Assembly: GCF_027595985.1 (NCBI RefSeq)
Contig: NC_073304.1
Coordinates: 215,480,500-215,544,499, forward strand
Direction: 5' to 3'
Length of the DNA: 64,000 bases
Origin: Sorex araneus
Taxonomy: Eukaryota > Chordata > Mammalia > Eulipotyphla > Soricidae
This document shows positions 20,440-61,973 of this stretch, piece after piece. Both the position numbers and the translations under genes were made by a program. The notes beneath the pieces were generated by a model. The model saw only the letters and a program-made list of their open reading frames with translations. It was not told the DNA's origin and ran no database searches. The stretch's first letter is position 1. The number at the start of each line of letters is the position of its first letter.

Positions 20440-20440
<1 letters not shown>

Positions 20441-20501
<61 letters not shown>
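20441..20501 (+). repeat. (GAT)n microsatellite
   Basis: A perfect run of about 20 GAT triplets. Confidence 0.97.
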
Positions 20502-51364: not shown

Positions 51365-54300
51365 TTGAGAATGGATCGTCCATTTTATTTTATTTTGTCA
51401 TGTGCTCACAGCATCTCTCTTTTTCTCCTCTCCCTGGCAGGTCACAGAGATAAATTAAAAATAAAATCTATGAGGAAAATAATTTATAAAAGCACTTCCC
51501 AGGCTCATGCCTTCTATCCCTACTGCTGTTAGAATGTCCTCCCCTCCAAGGAAGTGGGGCAGGAGAAGCAGTGTTCCCCCTCCAGCTCACTCTCGCTAGT
51601 CCGGGACAGACTACTCCTGAGCCGGGTGAGGTGGTGGCAGCAGTGGCAGTTAAAAATAAAGACTGCAGTCCTGGAACCTTCTGGCTACCTTGGCATTCCC
51701 CTCTGTCTCCCCCAGGCAGTTCTCCAGGAGCCCTGGCTAAGCTGGGGCTGAGAGCCTGGGGGGTGCGGTGCTCTCAGTCCCTCTTACATACATGCACTTC
51801 TCATTCTCCTACAAAGAAACCCAAAAAAGAAAGCAGACAGAGACCTCAGGACAGAGGAGGAAATCCCAAGTGTTCACACAGTTACACGGAGTCTTTATGG
51901 CAAAGAGAACATTTAGCAGCTTTGAATATTGGGGTATCTCCTTTTACTCAACACAAGCATTCTATACCCTATAAGTGAAACAGGGCTCAAGCCCTAAAAA
52001 AATCAAAGCGCAAGAAACTCTAAGAGGACTAGTTTTTTGTTGCTGGGTTTTGTAGTTTTGTGTTTCCAGTGACAAGCCCAGTTGTTGGTAGGGGGGCCTG
52101 CGGGGTCTCTCCCCAGCGTTGTGCTGAATACTGCCTGGCTTCTCCCTCTCACTTCCCTGCCTTACAGCAGCCCCCAGAAGAGGAAGGCCGTACGGCCCAG
52201 CACTGGGGGCACTGCCAGCTCCAGTGGGCGCGGTGAGGGCTGGGGAAGGGAGGCCTGGATGGGCAGCAGAGAACAGCGTTTGCATGCAGGCTCTGATGGA
52301 GACCTGGGAGCCTCAGCTCAGGGGCACGGGTGCAGAGGGAGGTGGAGGCAGGGCAGTTGGGCGACATGCTCTTGGGGCTGTGGCAACACAGGGCTGCATG
52401 ACCCTTTCCTGTCCACCCGACCCTTTGACGCCCACCCGCCAGCCAGCATCGGGTCCCAGGGGCTCTCCTCTGATGGCAACATTAATACAGAAGAGCTAAG
52501 AGGTCCTTCCATGGGTACCAAAGTGCAGGGAGCAGAAAGTGTCACAAAGCCTTGCCCAATCCCACCTATCCTGTCTGAATACCAACCCTCCCCAGGGTGG
52601 GGAAGTGGGGTTTACTCACTCCGATGACCTAGTCCCACCTTAAAACCTGCCGCCTGGAATCCTGGCCAAAGACAATCTTAATCTGCCCTTCGATTTTCTT
52701 CCCGCTTTGATTTTTTTGGGTTTTATCTTCCTTCCTTACTTCGTTCATTCCTATGTCCATCCATGCAGGAAAGAGCCTTTCTACTTTCCTCTCCTCTCGT
52801 AAGACCCATCTTTCTCCTCTGCTGGCCTCCAGCAATGCCAGTACCACCCCTTCCCTAGAAGGAAAGGGGGAGGGGGAGGACCCTGTCCACCCAGCCTGGC
52901 CATTCTCACCACCCCTAGTGGGGGAAGCTGAGCCAGACAGCGCCTGCGCCTGCCTCTTCCTCTCCACTGACCCGCAGTCATCCCCTCTGAGAAGATCTAT
53001 TGGATAAGAAGGCATTAAAGTCCCCGCTGTAGGTCCAGGTCCAGGCCCAGCCCTTCTCCAGTTTCCATCTTGGTGAGTGTCAACCCCCCTTCCTCCTGGG
53101 CTCACTTTCTCCTGTCCTTTGGCTTCCTCTCCTGCCGCCGGGCCTGCTGGTCAGCCAGGGTGCGGGGAATGAGGAGGACGCTGCCATCCCCGGCGTACTG
53201 GAGTGCATACTGACTGGGGGAGTAGGGACGCCCGTTCTCATCCCGCAGCCTCCCAAACACTTCCTGGTAGAGACTCTGGACCTTTTGCTTCATCTGCCGC
53301 AGGGACCGGAGAAACTCCACCTTCTCCCGCAGCAGCCGGGCTTTATCACGCTGCAGGTCCTCCACATCCCGCTCCAGGTTCAGGATGGTGTCCAGCTTGC
53401 GCTTGCGGCAGTTCTGCGCTGCCATCTTATTCTTGCCCCGGCGCCGGATGTCACGGATGAGGCTGAGCTGGGCCTCACTCAGCTGGTATTTGGACAGCAG
53501 CTCATTAAACTCCTCCACAGGCAGGTTGATGATTTTGTCATTGGTGAAAGGAATCTTCATGGCTCGGGCTCGATGTTCATCCCGGCTCATCTGTTTGTCC
53601 AGAAAGTCGGCCTGCTTCTCCTTGCTGCCTTTCTTGAGGGTACTGGGTGGTGGCAGGTCGGCAGAATCGAGGGCACTGGGCGCCATGTTGTATGTGTGGT
53701 TGTGGCCCACGTGCTCCAGGTAGGGCAGGCAGGAGAGCTGGGACGGATCCTGGTAGCTCATGCGGCAGAACTTAGAATACTCGGGTTGGTAGCCCACAGC
53801 ACCCTCAGCCTCTTCCAGATCCAGGGTCTCAGAGTCAGAACTATAGCCAACAGCACCTTCCTCAGAAAAGGAGGAAGAGGCTGAGGAAGAAGTAGAAGAG
53901 GAAGAGGACGAAGAGGACGAAGAGGAGGAGGAAGAGCTGCCCTCAGAGCTGCTCAGAGAGGAGGGACTATGGCTGGAGTCCAAGGAGAGGCCTGAGTCAG
54001 AATCAAACTCCTCTTCAAGCTGCGAGGCCTGCACAGGGTTAAAGCCTTCTTCAATGGCCAGGTCCATCAGGCTGATCTCATCCAGCATGGCTTCATCTAA
54101 CAGACCCCCCAGTGGGTCAGGCAGCTCAGGGCCTGCTGTGTCATTGGCCGTGCCGTTGAGCTGGGGCGGAAAGAAGAGCCCCGCCAGGTTGGTGGAACCA
54201 AATGTAGAGTTGAGGCTGGTGGAATTGCTGGGGACCAGTGGAAGCAGTGTGGAGCTGCTGGCCACAGGCAGGCTCTCCACCTCGGGACTAAAGAGTGAGA

Positions 54301-54451
54301 AGTCCTGGCTGCAGCCCCCCAGGGATGCCTGATGCAGGCTGACATTCTGATTGATGGGAGTGTTGGGAGCAAGGCTGTAGTTGGTGCTCAGTGGGTCTGC
54401 AGGAGGGGCACTGTACAGGATCTCACTTGTGGATGTGTTCACCTCCATGGC
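51365..54451 (-). CDS. NFE2L1: NFE2L1 last exon (residues 296-744, stop, and 3' UTR)
   Basis: The acceptor is TTTTCCCCTCACAG before 54451 and coding runs to TGA at 53104-53102. It encodes AMEVNTSTSEILYS, the glycosylated NST region, DSGLSLDSSHS, a poly-Ser tract of mixed serine codons, the CNC domain, the basic region and leucine zipper, and the tail ending KPKDRRK. The 3' UTR, about 1.7 kb to two overlapping AATAAA signals at 51384-51394, contains no recognisable SINE, whereas SINE remnants resume just beyond it at about 51.1 kb. The exact cleavage site near 51365 is estimated. Confidence 0.93.
51384..51394 (-). terminator. NFE2L1: NFE2L1 polyadenylation signals (two overlapping AATAAA)
   Basis: The minus strand reads AATAAAATAAAATGG at the end of the repeat-free 3' UTR. 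The distance from the stop codon, about 1.7 kb, fits the human transcript as I recall it. No other AATAAA was noticed on this strand between the stop and this site. Confidence 0.65.
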
Positions 54452-57400
54452 CTGTGAGGGGAAAAGAGCATCACCATTCACTTGGGGCAGACTCCCTCCC
54501 CAGCTGGGGCGGGGGCTCACACCAGCACATACAGAGCACTGACATATGCCAAGAGCTAAAACCAGAGCACACAGCATTAGTTTCTGACCCTGTCTAATCC
54601 ACCAGATCAGGCACTAATGGGCTCCTTCCAACGGACTCCATCCCAGAGCAGGACTGGCCAGACTCCCATATCAAGGAGGGAGAGCAGGAAAACACCTAAC
54701 ACTGTCTCTCCAGCACCATATCAGCACAGGGAAAAGCACACCAGGCCACCCTGCTGTGTCAGAGGGCACATTACTCAATCTCAATCACCTGAGCATTAAA
54801 ATAACGGGGCCCGGGGCTGGAGTGATAGCACAGCAGGTAGGGCGTTTGCCTTGCACGCGGCCGACCCGGGTTCGAATCCCAGCACCCCATATGGTCCCCT
54901 GAGCACCGCCAGGAGTAATTCCTGAGTGCATAAGCCAGGAGTAACCCCTGTGCATTGCTGGGTGTGACCCAAAAAGCAAAAAAACAAAAAAATAATAAAA
55001 TAAAATAAAATAACGGGGCCCAGAGATACAGTTCAGGGATTAAGGTGCTTGTCTTGCACCTGGTCAACCTGAGTTAGATCCTTGGCATTGCATATGGCCA
55101 TGACCAGGAGTGATCTTAGTCACAGCGCCAAGAGTAAACCCTGAGCACCAAAAAGAAGCCAAAAATAATCTTTAAAACAAAGAGGCTAAGCCAGAGAGGT
55201 ACCGCAACAAGCATATGCTTTGCATGTAGGCCTAGCTGAATCCTCTGGTACTGCCTCGGCAACCTCAAAGCAGAGCCAAGAATAGCCCCTTGGCATCAGT
55301 GAACGGCCAACCCCTCTCCCCCAAATAATACAGGGCCAAGAGAGATGATGACAACTATAGTAATGAAGCACTGCAGAAATGGCCCTTTTATTAATGCTAA
55401 CCCTTGGAAGGATCCGGCCGAGTATCTGTCTGAAGGAAAGAAGATGCAGCCAAAGCAGCAGGCCGGCTGGATTTAGTCCACACCCCACCCAGCCCCTCTC
55501 CCTCTCCATCACCCTCTCCCCATCTCCATCCAAGGAGACACCAAGGAGAGATAAGTTACCTCTCAAGGTTCCCACCTTCCTATATGGACCAGACAAACAG
55601 GGATTATTTTTTCTCTTCCAGATCTAGAAAAGCAATGGCTAGTTAAGCCACAAAGCCCCATTCAGACCATCCTACCTGCATTTCCATGATGGACATAAGA
55701 TCTTGCCACTGCTGTTCCAAATCAAATGGCGACTCTGTCCCCGTCAGGAGAGGAGACAAGAGGTTGTTTTGAAGACCCGGGGGCTCACTCTCACGAGGCA
55801 CTGCTTCTGTTATGCTGGAAATGTCTGCTGGAAACTAGGGTAGAAACAGAGAATAAGCTTTAACAAAGAAGAAAATGCCACCAGCTTTCCGCCCAGAGAC
55901 TATTGCAGGATGTTCTGTTCCTTCTTTTCTCTAAATTCACCCCCAACAGCCAGGACAAGACCAGCAGCAAGAGCAGGCCCCATCCACTGGCAAGGTAGGC
56001 GTCCTTCTGGCGTCCTGCTCACCTCAGGATTCTCCCCAAAGGGGCAGGTAGCCTCCAGCACTCTTGCAGGCAAAGGGCTATCTGGTGCTCCCTATAAGCA
56101 CTTGTGGTTACAGCTACTGTAAGTCTGACTGACCAGGGCCCTGACTGTTACGGGCTCTACGGGCAGCTGAAGCAGGACCTGCTTGCCTGCAGACCTGCCC
56201 TCTCCCTCTATTCCTGGGCTACCAGCCCTGAGACCAATTTGAGGGGTGAACAGCAAAAAAGTGAAAGCATCCCAACACAAGCAGGAAGCCTCTAGATATT
56301 TTGCCTCCTTTATGCGGATTGCTAGCCCCTTTTCTTCTGCTGCTTCCCTATTTCCCCTTCCTCAGCCCACCCAGGCCCCTATCAAGATCAGTAAGATTTA
56401 CCCCAAAAGACACAATCTGCCTTTTTTCTCTAAGGAGAAGTTTCTGGAAACAGGAAGTAGTAGTACCTGTGCAGGGAAGCTCTCCCCGGTTTCTCCATCC
56501 ACTAGCAGGTTTCGTGCCAGAGCTTCTGCACCCTCTCCTGGCCAGGTGTCCTCCTGATCTGTGCCATCTCGCAACTCCTTTTCCACATCCTGCTCCTTCT
56601 GACGGTGACTATAATCAAAAATCTCACGCCCAGCTCCTAAATCAATATCCTGTCGCCAAAGGATGTCAATCAGATCTATATCCTGAAAGACAGATCATTA
56701 ACTTTAGCTCTTGGCCTTGGGGCCCATCCTGTCCACTCCCTCAGAGGGTCCTGTAGTCCTATGGGGACCCCCACCCAGCCCTACACTTAAGCTTTTGTAT
56801 CCATATCCCGATACCAGTTTCCCTAGAAAAGGAGCTAGAAAGAAAACACTAGTGTGACTATCACTTAACAAATCGGTAGGCTGGGGCTCTGGACCAGGGC
56901 TACCAAACCAAAATGCCAAGCCACCCTCGCCCCTTCAGAAGGGGGCAGGGAAAGCAGAAGACACTTTCATTTCGGTAATGGGATTCCCTAACTTGCTTTG
57001 GAGGAGGCTGGATATGGCAAGCAAGGGCGAACTGCCATGCAGAATTGCTCTGAGGTGGCCAGGCTTGCATCAGCCTTTGGTGCCATTCATTTGCATAAAG
57101 GGGTGGGCTGGGCTGGAGAGGAAAATCCCTGCATTTGCAACCACCTGATGCAACCAATGACAACCACCAGAACAGCGGTCTTCAGCCCTTCCCAGTCATT
57201 CCCCATCCCCGGTGATGGCAGGAGTAAGGGTTGAACACCCACAACTCTCAAAAGCCCAGGCTCACCTCCTGCTCCATGCCTGCCAGAATCCCCACTCTCA
57301 GCTGATCCTAGTAAGCTGCCCTGATCCCAGGAGAGCCTCAGGCAGTCAGATGATTCTCAGCCGGCACCCCACCCTTGCCAAGACCAGCCCAACCGTGTCC

Positions 57401-60400
57401 CCTCACAGGCGTGCTCGCACGGCTTTCCCTACCACACCCCAGGGCTCACTAACTCCCATCAGTCAACCCACTCAAACAGAGCCCCTGACACAGCTCACAA
57501 ATGTCGCCTCTGGCACCAAAATGCCTTCTTTCTTGCATCCCTCCTTCTCTACTCTGGTGGTGTGACCAGTTTCTATACCAACTGTCGCCGCCACCCCTGC
57601 CACCAACATTGAACCCAGTAAATAAGACCCCTCCCAGCTTGCTACACACACCATTCCCCATGGAAGGTCCTATCTACTGCCTTCCCTTTGGGGGTTAAAA
57701 AGCAGGCACTTTTCGGAAAGCAGTCTCCTTGGATTATCCCCACCCCCCTCGCCCTTACCAGGGCTCCCTTTCCCACCACAACCTCCCTGGTCCTAAGACC
57801 TCCCGAGGGTACCTCTCCCGTTAGTCTCCCCAGACACCCACCTGAACAGAAGCCCTGGACCCAGCAGAGGGGGGCTGGGCCACCCGGTGACCAGCCAGCA
57901 AAGAGTTAAGGGGCCGGCTCCCTTTGGCTGGGCCCTCACCACTGTGAGAGCTGCGGTCCAGGCGGGTCATGGTCTGTGAGAAGAGCCCCAGGGCAGCCGG
58001 TGCCGGGAAGCCGGACAGGGGGCTGCAAGGAGCTCTTGGCTTGCAAGGAGCACACCAGGCTGGAAGGGTGGCCCCTTGCTAGCTCTGGGGGCCCTAGGAG
58101 GGTGCCCCGCCCGTACTGCTGCCTGGGCGGCCCAGCCCAGCCCCCTTTCTCCATCCTTGAGCAGCCCCCTCCCACCTCACAACCCCAGTTCCACTCAGGC
58201 ACCCGGCAGCCCCCACCCTGAGCTCACCGCAGAGGCTGCAGTGAGATGGGACTCCCACCCCATGCTCCGTGCTCAAGCTGCAGAGGAAAGCAAGCTCCCT
58301 CCTGGGCCTATCCTCCCGCTCCTCCCTTTCTCCCCCTCCCCACGCCCCCCAAACTTGTTACCTAGGCTGCAGCGGGGAGCCAATCCCCTCCCCCTCCCAC
58401 CCCGCAGGTCACTGCTGAGGCTGCAGAGAGCCAATCCCCTCCCCCAGGTCAGCAGCTGGGCTGCGGAAAGAGCCAATCCCCACCCACTGTCGTTACCTAG
58501 GCTGCAATGAGAGCCAATCTCCTCCCCCAAGTCTCCGCTGGAGATGCGGAAGGAGCCAATCCCCTCCCACCGCCTGTTACCTAGCTGCAGCCGGGAGCCA
58601 ATCTCTGCACCAGGGCAGCTGGAGAAGCTGCCGCAAGGAACGGCCCATCCCTGGGCCGCCTCCGTCTCCTCAAGGAGACGCACCCAGGGGCGGGCGGCCC
58701 CACCCAACCCAGTCAGCCAGTCGGGGTGGCGCAGTGAAGAGAGCCCTGGGGGAAGGGGTGCCACTCTGCCTCCTGTCGCATCCTGCTTACCCAGCCCACT
58801 CAGGGGCTGGCCAGACACTCTGCAGCTTCTCCAGGAACCTAAGTTCTTCTCTGCAAGTGGAAGTTTTCCTGATCCTCGGGAGGATATGGGAAGCCTTCCT
58901 CAAACCCAAGGATCACAAGCCAAGCAGAACAGAACCCCAGTGGTAGTACACTGTGAACCAGGGCCTGGTACCCTACAAGAGCCAAACCAAGAGGCAGAAG
59001 AAAACCATTTGCACAGACTCGGTGAAATCAGGCGCAAGCCAGGCCCACCGCAGGGGAGAGAAGGGAGACCCGGAGGCCAGCACTGAAGTAGACAGGCACT
59101 CTGCAGTCATGGGCACCAACAAGACCCTCACCCCTTGGCCACAAATCAGACCACCCCAATGCCTTCGAGACTTTCTGCCTGAACCTTGAAGCACATCTCA
59201 AAACAGCAAAGAAGCCTCAGATGGAATCAGCACCCCCATTCCAACTCCCTCTTCGCTGCTGCTCCCCTTGAACCTAAGGTCAAGCCAGGACCTGTGTGGT
59301 CTCCTGGATCCTCCCTGCTCGCCTAGAAAGAACTGCTCATAGGCCACCCCCTGCTCTGGGCAGAGTGCCATCCTCAAGGGGAATCCTATCCCTAACAAGA
59401 ACTTGGGCTATGGCTGTCCATTGAACAGGCCTGGCAGCAGGGGAGCGCTGCCACCCCAGGGATAATATCAGCTCCAGCAGTGCCTGTCACATGCTCTGGA
59501 CCTGGGTATTTTTATCCCTGAGTTGCTGAGGAAATGTTCTAGACACACATTAATCTTTCCTCCCTCCACATTCAGCCTAGGCCCCTAATGCTGACCCACC
59601 CACAGCCCCCACAGGGACAGTGAGAGCGTGGGGTCAGGGAACACACACCCTACTTGAAGGCTAAGAAACGGAGGAGGGTTAGGCCAAAATCCTTCTCTTT
59701 CTTGCCCAATCGTCTAATTATATCCCAAACATCGCCTCCTAATCCATCCCACCTTGGGGAGAACTCCCGGCAGGAAAGGAATGAAGCTGCCTGTATGGGG
59801 TTCCCAGGGGAAAACCCAATTACACTCAGCCCTTGGGGAGTCCCACTGGAGCACAAGGATGGGAGTGGAGGCTGGGAAGTGGCATTAATCTTCAGGCCAC
59901 AGTGCCAAGATGGGCACCCACTTGAAAGGAAAGGACAGAGGAGGCTGAAGAGTGGTAAGGAAGCTAAAAAAAGCACTGAAAGTTAAGAAATGCTTGCCCC
60001 GTGCATAAATAATTCTCGTCTCTCAAACTATGAGCATATAAAACTATTGCTAGCACTGTCATGTCTATCTTTTGGGAGGGTTGGCCTGTACTTTATGGAT
60101 GTTCAGCAGCATTCCTGGTGTCTCCCCACTAGCACGAGAGCACGCGCACAAACACCCTGTCACATGTCCCACAGAAAACAGATGCACAATCGTCTTCACT
60201 TCACTTGACTTGCTGTTTGAGAGAAAGTCACATAAGTTGACAGTATGGAAAATTCAGATACAGAATGGACCAAATGCAACTCTGACTGGTGGGTAGTCCA
60301 ATTCTAGACAAACAATAGTCCTCCCTTCCCCCACACCCAGCCTGGGCCCCAGGGCTCACCCACCCACAGTCCCCACAGAGACAGTGAGGGCGTGGGGTCA

Positions 60401-61849
60401 GGGAACACTAGTGGCATCTAGAAAACTTTTCACATACCTTCGTATCGCCCTCCCCAAACCCTCCTCCCTGACTCAGCTTTGGAAAACCCAGTCGAGAGAT
60501 CCAGCTGTCTCTTTCCCAAATGGGAAAAAGAGTAGAATGGGCTTTTTCAAGCTCCTTAAGGCTGAGTGACATGCCAAGGCCGGAGAAACAGATCTCAGAG
60601 CAGTCTTATATAGGTGGGCCGGGCGCAGCAGAAGTCATTCACGCTGTTAAAGGCAACCGCATCATTTTCCACCCGGAACTGTATATCAACCACAGGTCAG
60701 GTGCCAACGACCTCTGACAGCTCAGAGCCAGCTGACTTCGGCCGCACAATGCAGCTTTCCGGCTAGCTCCCAACTCTCCTCCAAATGCCCTGTAGTGGGC
60801 CTTTAGCAGAGAATGGGAGCCTCAGCCCTCTCCTGGCCAAGAATAACTATCTAAATCTACCCCTTGGCTCAGGCCCAAGACAGCAGACTTATTAGGCCCT
60901 CAGAACAACAACAGGCCGACCACAAAGGAGGAGAAGTCAGGATATGTATGTGTTTTGATGTAGGGAGAGCTACAAGGCAAGAGTCCACAAAGTATTTGTG
61001 TCTTAGCAACAGATACACACCGCATCAAAGCCCATCATAACATGACTCCCTCCCCCACACCAGGAGTCATGTTGAAATCAAGCAGTAAACACACTGGCAT
61101 GTTCAAGGAACCTCCCACTGCCCCGACAGTCCATTTAGAGGTGGGTCAATGGTTCAACACAATGAGATTCTTCCAACCCCAATCAGAGCCAGACAATTCA
61201 GCCCCATTTCTACCCATGAACAATGCAACCCACCTGGAACCGTTCTGGTTTAGAGAAAGTTAGTGCAGCCCTTGATGATCAGCCCACCATGCCCCAATCC
61301 CAGACCCCTCCCAACCCACCCCTCCATGTGCCCACTAACCTCTTTGGTTAAGTCTCCACTGACTGGAGGGGCTACAGCCCCCAAATCCTCCAAATCTTCA
61401 CTGAATCCCTGCTCCGTTTCGCTTTCTCGCACCCCGTTGTCTGGGCCTGTCACATCCTGGAGGCCACTGGAACTTTCGAGGGCCAGGCCTGAGCTGGGCT
61501 GGCTGCCAGAGACAGACCCCTCCGGATCCCGATGGACCAGCCAGGCGTTCACCTCAGTGGTTGGCACCTGGAACCTGTCCAGGGCCCTCACCTGACTGAG
61601 GAGTCGCCGGGCAGTGAAGTAATTGTCCAGGTCTATGCTCTTGGGGTGGATACCATAGCCATCCAAGGTATTCCTCAGGTTGTGGAACTGAGTTTGAGTA
61701 TAGGCAGAACTGGGCCCCAGGATGATCTCCCGGAGTGGGGGGAGCTGTGAGGTCAGGTAAGTATCCACGTCCACCCGCACCCCAATCAAACTCAGCAGAA
61801 TGGTGAACTGGAGGAGTCCTTCCGTTAAGTATTTCTTCAGAGAAAGCAT
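53102..61849 (-). CDS. NFE2L1: NFE2L1 (NRF1/TCF11), ER-anchored CNC-bZIP transcription factor (spliced CDS)
   Basis: NFE2L1 is made as an ER-membrane glycoprotein, retrotranslocated, deglycosylated and cleaved by DDI2; the released factor pairs with small MAF proteins on antioxidant-response elements and drives proteasome genes. Joining, on the minus strand, 61849-61340, 56682-56467, 55834-55676 and 54451-53102 gives 2235 nt, or 744 residues plus TGA, close to the 742 of the human short form. Visible: N-terminal hydrophobic anchor at about 7-24; the cleavage-site motif NAWLVHRD (W103/L104); acidic DIDLIDILW from 171; an Asn/Ser/Thr region with several NxS/T sequons (NVS, NST, NGT, NDT); a DSGLSLDS degron-like motif; a poly-Ser tract; CNC domain; basic region RRRGKNKMAAQNCRKRK (631-647) followed by a leucine zipper; Lys/Arg-rich C-terminus. 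All borders are GT-AG and all coding junctions are phase 0. Confidence 0.97.
54813..55007 (+). mobile_element. Young SOR-type SINE with target-site duplication, in NFE2L1 intron
   Basis: Consensus-like copy (B box GGGTTCGAATCCC, tail AATAAAATAAAATAAAA), antisense to NFE2L1. Flanked by AAATAACGGGGCCC at about 54799-54812 and 55008-55021. It is inserted at the head of an older SINE that continues at 55014-55165. Confidence 0.94.
55014..55331 (+). mobile_element. Two old SOR-type SINEs
   Basis: 55014-55165 and 55186-55331. These are the last clear SINEs in the window. Confidence 0.72.
55676..55834 (-). CDS. NFE2L1: NFE2L1 exon, residues 243-295
   Basis: The acceptor is TCTGTTTCTACCCTAG before 55834 and the donor is ATGCAG|GTAGGA after 55676; 159 nt, phase 0 at both ends. 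It encodes FPADISSITEAVPRESEPPG then LQNNLLSPLLTG and ends DLEQQWQDLMSIMEMQ, part of the acidic activation domain. Confidence 0.94.
56023..56101 (-). pseudogene. NFE2L1: Degenerate or re-framed counterpart of the TCF11-specific NFE2L1 exon
   Basis: Between the two neighbouring exons the minus strand still carries CTACCTGCCCCTTTGGGGAG and a good donor (GAG|GTGAGC, exon side ends 56023), encoding LEATCPFGENPE. That matches the end of the 30-residue segment that distinguishes human TCF11 from NRF1, as I remember it. Upstream the match is broken: the ancestral-type acceptor position reads CAA instead of CAG at 56102, reading from 56101 meets a stop after seven codons, and about 10 nt are missing before LEATC. 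A different acceptor, TTATAG before 56091, would give an in-frame 69-nt exon (23 codons, GAPDSPLPAR then VLEATC...), but its pyrimidine tract is poor. Either a dead exon or a remodelled one. Confidence 0.6.
56467..56682 (-). CDS. NFE2L1: NFE2L1 exon encoding DIDLIDILW (residues 171-242)
   Basis: The acceptor is CTGTCTTTCAG before 56682 and the donor is GCACAG|GTACTA after 56467; 216 nt, phase 0 at both ends. It encodes DIDLIDILWRQDIDLG, a DLG-like acidic activation segment, then FDYSHRQKEQDVEKELRDG and ...GETGESFPAQ. It is the common exon joined by both the full-length and the NRF1b-type first exons. Confidence 0.94.
56683..58227 (-). other. NFE2L1: NFE2L1 intron, SINE-free
   Basis: Moderately GC-rich intron between the DIDLIDILW exon and the internal alternative first exon. 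No repeat or additional exon is recognised. Confidence 0.6.
58228..58263 (-). CDS. NFE2L1: NFE2L1 alternative first coding exon (NRF1b-type N-terminus)
   Basis: The minus strand reads ATG at 58263, then 12 codons, MGWESHLTAASA, then a donor GCG|GTGAGC with the exon ending at 58228. The exon is phase 0 and joins in frame to the DIDLIDILW exon at 56682, giving a 586-residue protein without the ER anchor and the DDI2 cleavage site. I recall an almost identical leader (MGWES.LTAASA) for an annotated human/mouse NFE2L1 isoform, NRF1b. The likely result is a factor that is not ER-tethered. The exon lies at the gene-strand end of a 42-bp tandem array with six CCAAT boxes, which would be its promoter. 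The 5' UTR start is not defined. Confidence 0.8.
58380..58602 (-). promoter_or_regulatory. NFE2L1: Internal NFE2L1 promoter with six phased CCAAT (NF-Y) boxes
   Basis: CCAAT on the plus strand (ATTGG on the gene strand) occurs at 58380, 58431, 58473, 58514, 58556 and 58598, all in one orientation and all in the context GAGCCAATC, which fits NF-Y. Spacings are 51, 42, 41, 42 and 42 bp; 42 bp is four helical turns. The array lies 117-340 bp upstream of the ATG of the NRF1b-type exon, and GC-rich DNA follows at 58.62-58.73 kb. Promoter function is inferred from position and motif; NF-Y preference for CCAAT is established. Confidence 0.7.
58663..58680. repeat. Perfect 8-bp inverted repeat (CGTCTCCT-CA-AGGAGACG)
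   Basis: Palindromic arms separated by two bases, just upstream (gene strand) of the CCAAT array. A second short inverted repeat, CGGCCC...GGGCCG with a 6-bp centre, lies next to it at 58641-58658. Either could be a dimeric-factor site in the internal promoter; no family is recognised. Confidence 0.5.
59556..60409. repeat. Diverged ~90-bp direct repeat, two copies 765 bp apart
   Basis: Copies at 59556-59645 and 60321-60409 share CCTCCCT, CAGCCT.GGCCCC, CACCCACCCACAG.CCCCAC and GGGGTCAGGGAACAC with scattered substitutions. It is not a SINE and lies in SINE-poor NFE2L1 intron. It looks like a local duplication. Confidence 0.7.
60469..60477 (+). promoter_or_regulatory. ARE/NF-E2-type site TGACTCAGC in NFE2L1 intron
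   Basis: TGACTCAGC fits the antioxidant-response/MARE half consensus TGACnnnGC bound by CNC-bZIP and small MAF dimers, including NFE2L1 itself. It lies in the 4.7-kb intron between the first two coding exons. A single short match; function is speculative. Confidence 0.35.
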
Positions 61850-61973
61850 TGCTGAAGGACCAGAATGTTTATGCTTTTTGGTTTTTAAATCTTCCAAAAG
61901 ACAAATCAAGGCCACTGCTCTGCTGCTCCAGCCAGCAAGTTACCCTCCTCAGTGCCAAACCCTGTACCCTACC
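61340..61973 (-). CDS. NFE2L1: NFE2L1 first coding exon (residues 1-170, plus 5' UTR)
   Basis: The ATG is at 61849; MLSLKKYLTEGLLQ begins the protein and is preferred over the upstream in-frame ATG at 61915 because it matches the known NRF1 start and puts the ER anchor at the N-terminus. The donor is AAAGAG|GTTAGT and the exon ends at 61340. It encodes the membrane anchor, the region up to the DDI2 cleavage motif, and SGDLTKE. The 5' border is inferred from a good minus-strand acceptor, TGTGTTCTGCCAG before 61973, leaving about 124 nt of UTR. That acceptor is less certain than the coding part. Confidence 0.9.

Follow-up and report, generated by a model that had tools for sequence, protein, structure and literature searches.

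Six CCAAT boxes in helical register beside an internal first exon of NFE2L1 in Sorex araneus

CCAAT boxes repeated at set distances are known from human NF-Y/c-Fos promoters. In the passages of PMC4982600 that deal with spacing, the distances between direct repeats of CCAAT peak at 31 bp and have further maxima near 41, 52 and 63 bp, and this helical spacing is explained by DNA bends made in the same direction. The U3 enhancer of the ERV9/LTR12 elements consists of 5–17 repeats of about 41 bp that hold CCAAT and a G-rich motif and are bound by NF-Y; the excerpted text of PMC11853044 describes NF-Y there as combined with a GTGGGGA motif. In mouse ES cells, NF-Y sites have a median position 94 bp upstream of the transcription start, and the corresponding section of PMC6624317 reports that NF-Y keeps the promoter nucleosome-free.

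The gene NFE2L1 has an internal promoter, and reporter activity has been shown for the orthologous human and mouse flanks, as summarised in parts of PMC10646089 and PMC3483171. In the promoter description of the latter paper, the mouse Nrf1b 5' flank contains several antioxidant response elements (AREs) and an AP-1 site, and is reported to lack both TATA and CCAAT elements. Here we describe an array of CCAAT boxes at the equivalent place in Sorex araneus, and compare it with other NF-Y box arrays in the same genome.

A CCAAT box array upstream of exon 1b

In the window, by which we mean the whole 64-kb stretch of DNA that was analysed, NFE2L1 lies on the minus strand and has its main coding frame at 53102–54613. 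Six identical copies of the NF-Y-type box GAGCCAATC are located on the plus strand at 58377–58385, 58428–58436, 58470–58478, 58511–58519, 58553–58561 and 58595–58603 (boxes 1 to 6, all exact motif matches); in the sense of the gene they read GATTGGCTC (ATTGG). An earlier note on this DNA had reported six CCAAT boxes in one orientation, with coordinates that refer to the inner CCAAT and fall three bases past the start of each box, and direct motif positions bear out both the boxes and the steps between them (51, 42, 41, 42 and 42 bp). All six boxes fit RRCCAATS and contain AGCCAATC, but where the published consensus, RRCCAATSR, ends in R they have C or T. The six-box array is confirmed as real and non-random: the window contains seven exact copies of GAGCCAATC, six of them in the array, a total reached in 0 of 100 shuffles of the window (shuffle mean 0.76), and in first-order Markov simulations of the 2-kb locus 0 of 3000 had more than one copy per strand.

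The array is next to an exon that follows the ER-anchor exon of NFE2L1 and precedes its shared exons. On one side, an open frame at 61250–61939 (minus strand, MLSLKKYLTEGLLQFTILLSL...) includes what we take to be the ER-anchor exon, as the descriptions in the papers also name it, which the internal promoter skips. On the other, the next shared exon starts at 56657–56682 (minus strand), where the Nrf1b junction primer matches at 25 of 26 positions. Between them, the sequence MGWESHLTAASA at 58228–58263 (minus strand) is identical, over 36 of 36 nucleotides, to the coding part of exon 1b in the published Nrf1b sequence (assembled from primers in PMC3483171), and is followed by a GTGAGC splice donor. 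The earlier claim that an alternative first exon adjoins the array is thus upheld. Residue 6 of MGWESHLTAASA is histidine, the residue given for human Nrf1b in the relevant part of PMC3483171, and the mouse arginine-form primer matches at 17 of 19 positions. An NF-kB-like site (GGGACTCCC) is located at 58248–58256, within the coding part of exon 1b; for mouse, a passage of PMC3483171 names an NF-kB site upstream of the Nrf1b ATG.

The start codon region of the NFE2L1-616 frame (MTRLDRSSHSG...) is at 57953–57970 on the minus strand, where a human primer matches 18/18, and by eye the published NFE2L1-616 antibody peptide agrees with this frame in 20 of its 22 residues. Other human NFE2L1-616 primers (PMC10646089) match perfectly at 57887–57910 (21/21 and 19/19), 58000–58019 (20/20) and 58179–58198 (20/20), and three further ones match less well (17/18, 16/18 and 20/24). 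NFE2L1-616 and Nrf1b appear to have a common start zone, and we infer that the NFE2L1-616 transcript reads through the Nrf1b splice donor.

Starts mapped in human and mouse place the putative transcription start zone of exon 1b and NFE2L1-616 at 58330–58356 (minus strand). On the assumption that there are no indels, the human +152 primer (the 20/20 match at 58179–58198) gives a start near 58330, and mouse primer extension, which ended 93 bp before the ATG, gives one near 58356. The boxes would then lie 50–268 bp (human-based) or 24–242 bp (mouse-based) upstream of the start, with at least two same-strand boxes within about 300 bp of this cross-species estimate. The CCAAT of box 1 would be 50 or 24 bp upstream, and box 2 would be 101 or 75 bp upstream, near the NF-Y median of 94 bp. 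The distance of 117–340 bp proposed earlier is correct as a distance to the exon-1b ATG at 58263, but not as a distance to the 5' end of the exon. In the 1.5 kb upstream of exon 1b we found no TATAAA and no AP-1 site, and two loose ARE-like matches. Within 58263–59763, which covers 1.5 kb ahead of the exon-1b ATG, one strand carries all eight CCAAT pentamers. Around the inferred start, the gene-sense strand has two runs of the G-quadruplex type, at 58315–58350 and 58385–58403.

We also located the reporter fragments from the other two species. The human fragment from −2417 to +152 spans 2569 bp, compared to 2562 bp here (its forward primer matches 17/21 at 60720–60740), so the human interval seems nearly equal in length, which by itself gives no indication of its box content. 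The mouse −1021 primer, which includes a restriction site, matches 17/21 at 59462–59482 (the next best place is 15/21); if this 17/21 match is right, mouse has about 198 bp less in this interval than the shrew, and the array may be partly or wholly absent from mouse.

Divergence of the repeat units and constancy of the box

The boxes are embedded in a degenerate tandem array of 41–42 bp units at 58344–58603 (plus strand), recognised by TRF, a repeat finder and alignment of the units. TRF reports a period-41 array at 58396–58568 (4.2 copies, 71% matches) and a period-83, double-unit array at 58418–58589 (2.1 copies, 83%). The linkers are of two kinds: GTTACCTAGGCTGCA or a near form of it precedes boxes 1, 4 and 6, and another linker precedes boxes 2, 3 and 5. 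The repeat finder also indicates that the exon-1b region at about 58211–58290 resembles the array units (35 nt, 77%). We do not claim box-less units in this region or beyond box 6: with the boxes masked, a profile of the units scores 6.2 and 8.5 in the exon-1b region, whereas chance matches on the rest of the plus strand of the window score up to 12.5, and this profile found no further units but is powerless, since left-out true units themselves score only −14.2 to 10.9. A dispersed-repeat origin was rejected on weak evidence, namely that a search of the available part of the shrew's own genome (common words skipped) returned a single 50-bp match, at the array's own place.

Outside the box, the pairwise identity of the six units is only 41–77% (global alignment), so they are old, not the near-identical tandem units of a VNTR. 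This bears on the earlier suggestion of repeat-number-tunable expression, in which copy number varies among individuals and sets the level of the isoform. A tandem array does adjoin the promoter, and near-identical, potentially variable NF-Y arrays exist elsewhere in the genome (for example L109 and L108, with inter-box identities of 0.94 and 0.97). The NFE2L1 units, however, are too divergent for frequent unequal exchange to be likely, and the data come from a single genome; the suggestion did not hold up, and we regard a polymorphic tunable promoter as very improbable.

The steps have stayed at 41–42 bp despite the divergence of the units, and the box itself does not vary: 9 of 9 alignment columns are invariant in the box, compared to 8 of 45 elsewhere (gap columns included), and these nine columns are the longest invariant run (column permutation P = 0.0002). 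The pattern suggests that the box is under selection, though the test is biased because the units were recognised by their boxes. The same bias gives room to a simpler explanation, that the array is a decayed minisatellite of no importance in which the boxes of the founding unit survive by chance or by the way they were detected, and in which the G-rich stretches adjoining the start are the real promoter elements. As the box was the search key, its invariance is partly built in; the mouse promoter is active though reported to lack CCAAT, and the G-runs with quadruplex potential flank the start. Against this explanation stand the difference between box columns and other columns, and the fact that all six surviving boxes keep steps of 41–42 or 51 bp. 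We consider it unlikely, though far from negligible, and return to it with the control motifs below.

The units raise a further question, which is whether NF-Y is the main reader of the array. In the sense of the gene, GGGG stands immediately 5' of ATTGGCTC in four of the six units, and LTR12 repeats pair NF-Y with the GTGGGGA motif (in the excerpts of PMC11853044), so that another CCAAT-binding or G-box-binding factor could be the main reader, with CCAAT in a secondary role. The G-rich half differs among the units and is nearly gone before box 6, whereas the CCAAT half is constant across all six, which makes this reading improbable. For the G-rich half of the units, Sp/KLF, MAZ or MZF1-like proteins are presumably among the candidates.

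Spacing of NF-Y box arrays across the genome

The six boxes are in phase on the DNA helix (R = 0.97 at the best-fitting period of 10.38 bp, and 0.86 at 10.5 bp). Their steps of 42, 41, 42, 42 and 51 bp are all multiples of the helical turn between boxes at least 24 bp apart, and the long step has nine extra bases, nearly one turn. The spacing of four turns described in the earlier note is therefore right for the four steps of 41–42 bp but not for the 51-bp step, which is about five turns. The phase of a single array carries little weight, because about one period in two would count as in phase and because tandem duplication fixes the step.

We scanned the shrew's own genome (2,405,902,106 bases) for triplets of GCCAATC boxes that lie on one strand at steps of 22–52 bp. 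The scan with AGCCAATC gave 294 matches, of which the analysis used roughly the first 100 (the last of them on C4); the scans with GGCCAATCAG and AGCCAATCAG gave 50 and 88 matches. Rows from a CCAATCTATCTTGGG satellite were left out (all of them, by eye, in the AGCCAATC scan and three in the GGCCAATCAG scan). The resulting set has 74 loci, 50 from the AGCCAATC and GGCCAATCAG scans (L032–L081) and 24 more from the AGCCAATCAG scan (L092–L115); the NFE2L1 array itself is outside this set, and the genome counts are lower bounds. Locus limits were set by hand, and where modal steps tied the first was taken. A kinship comparison limited to the first 50 loci found five weakly alike pairs.

The modal steps of these 74 other NF-Y box arrays cluster near 3, 4 and 5 helical turns: 8 loci have a modal step of 24–28 bp, 27 of 29–33 bp, 3 of 34–38 bp, 24 of 39–43 bp, 4 of 44–48 bp, 6 of 49–53 bp, and 2 a longer one. 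The best period is 10.3 bp. When the period was scanned in null sets as well, the observed phasing appeared in none of the 3000 uniform or 3000 jittered sets. For the first 50 loci alone it was reached by 2 of 2000 uniform nulls, and for the non-tandem arrays alone (11 loci, 33 steps) the result is borderline (reached by 136 of the 3000 uniform nulls and 61 of the 3000 jittered ones). All steps of the NFE2L1 array, that of 51 bp among them, agree with these genome-wide spacing classes. Some arrays mix the classes–for example, L094 has steps of 32, 39, 31, 30, 40, 32 and 39 bp.

Phasing does not improve with the age of an array (R = 0.54, n = 33, for older arrays, compared to R = 0.73, n = 24, for young ones), which argues against a simple model in which bad spacings are slowly purged. 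Since phase is already seen in the young arrays, an array may owe its period to a phased CCAAT pair from which the first duplication began.

Three control motifs yielded 11, 4 and 17 loci genome-wide (32 in total). The controls with 4 and 17 loci share the search form of the GGCCAATCAG and AGCCAATCAG scans, in which NF-Y boxes gave 23 and 40 loci (counted by eye). The control loci are unphased (R = 0.19 for the 27 of 32 loci with steps of 29 or more), and their steps are in anti-phase in 12 of 27 cases, compared to 7 of 63 NF-Y modal steps (P = 0.0012). The contrast is weaker when NF-Y loci are scored as the controls were, by the mean of two steps (12/66 compared to 12/27, P = 0.017), and at least one control locus was scored at double its true period of 17 bp. 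That control motifs form fewer arrays, and unphased ones, is a further point against reading the NFE2L1 array as an unimportant decayed minisatellite.

A first scan, restricted to steps of 40–44 bp, was dropped from the period test because its period is fixed by design and because a short satellite and a longer tandem family make up most of its list. It gave 1203 matches, compared to 17 for the reversed pattern, a poor control that contains CpG. The satellite, CCAATCTATCTTGGG, has a repeat of about 15 bp with many CCAAT matches, and occurs on C1 near 173.2–173.3 Mb, on C2 near 317.4 Mb, and elsewhere. The tandem family, GCCAATCACCCCATATGAGGTGGCGCTCATCTATTGGCTC, has two CCAAT boxes in opposite orientation per 42 bp and occurs on C4 at 73.85–73.95 Mb and in a few places on C1 and C2. 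In the window itself there is a pure TGA trinucleotide repeat of 20.7 copies at 20440–20501.

We tentatively propose a genome-wide class of NF-Y minisatellites, made of many unrelated tandem repeats with one box per unit and whole-turn periods, in which duplication combined with NF-Y geometry would repeatedly have built phased multi-box promoters or enhancers, with the NFE2L1 array as an old, domesticated member; on balance we lean against this proposal, without thinking it far-fetched. That NF-Y minisatellites across the genome have periods close to whole turns is a more surprising lead than the NFE2L1 array. Array spacing in a genome is a simple, ChIP-free sequence test of NF-Y stereospecificity, in which natural arrays reveal the spacings that are kept.

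A putative NF-Y promoter and its relation to known systems

Our preferred reading, to which we assign a probability of about 0.6 from sequence and comparison with the published transcripts, is that the array is a multi-site NF-Y promoter for NFE2L1 isoforms without the ER anchor. The array would serve the internal first exon as its proximal promoter and would bind several NF-Y trimers. With NF-Y on several boxes that face one side of the DNA, bending would be additive and nucleosomes would be excluded from about 250 bp; RNA polymerase II would then start, TATA-less, 25–50 bp beyond box 1, and the transcripts would give NFE2L1 forms that lack the ER anchor and go directly to the nucleus (Nrf1b and NFE2L1-616). 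The array itself probably arose by tandem duplication of a module of G-box and CCAAT, with later decay mostly outside the boxes. An NF-Y promoter had been suggested in the earlier note, and parts of that suggestion now have firmer footing: the exon is real, its orthologous flanks are active in reporters, the boxes fit RRCCAATS, their distances to the start are like those of NF-Y sites, and their steps follow the spacing classes of the other NF-Y box arrays in this genome and of human NF-Y/c-Fos promoters. A point against its wider importance is that in mouse no CCAAT is reported and the interval is shorter.

NFE2L1 controls proteasome and antioxidant genes, and the protein is normally held in the ER. 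If our reading is true, a strong NF-Y promoter for anchor-free NFE2L1 would bypass this ER control, and the bypass would depend on lineage if mouse really lacks the boxes.

Among the matches listed in a search of open-licence literature, the titles and opening lines of abstracts describe no such array in NFE2L1, nor a class of phased NF-Y minisatellites. Publications already cover spaced pairs of CCAAT and the 41-bp repeat of LTR12, and the NFE2L1 array belongs to a known kind.

The internal promoters of mouse Nrf1b and human NFE2L1-616 are at the same place in the gene and at the same exon as the array, and are likewise GC-rich and TATA-less; the mouse promoter differs in having several AREs and no reported CCAAT, whereas here there are six boxes and two loose ARE-like matches. 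The layout of ERV9/LTR12 is similar, with a repeat of about 41 bp that has CCAAT and a G-rich motif, though in the six copies here the G-run is present in four. ERV9/LTR12 is a retroviral LTR, whereas the NFE2L1 array adjoins a host exon, and because this exon 1b is identical to the published Nrf1b we disfavour membership of a retroviral LTR. Human NF-Y/c-Fos promoters, so far as the spacing passages of PMC4982600 describe them, resemble the array in having same-strand CCAAT near the start at steps of about 31, 41 and 52 bp; they have mainly pairs at 31 bp, whereas the NFE2L1 array, as read from its sequence, has six boxes at four or five turns within a tandem repeat.
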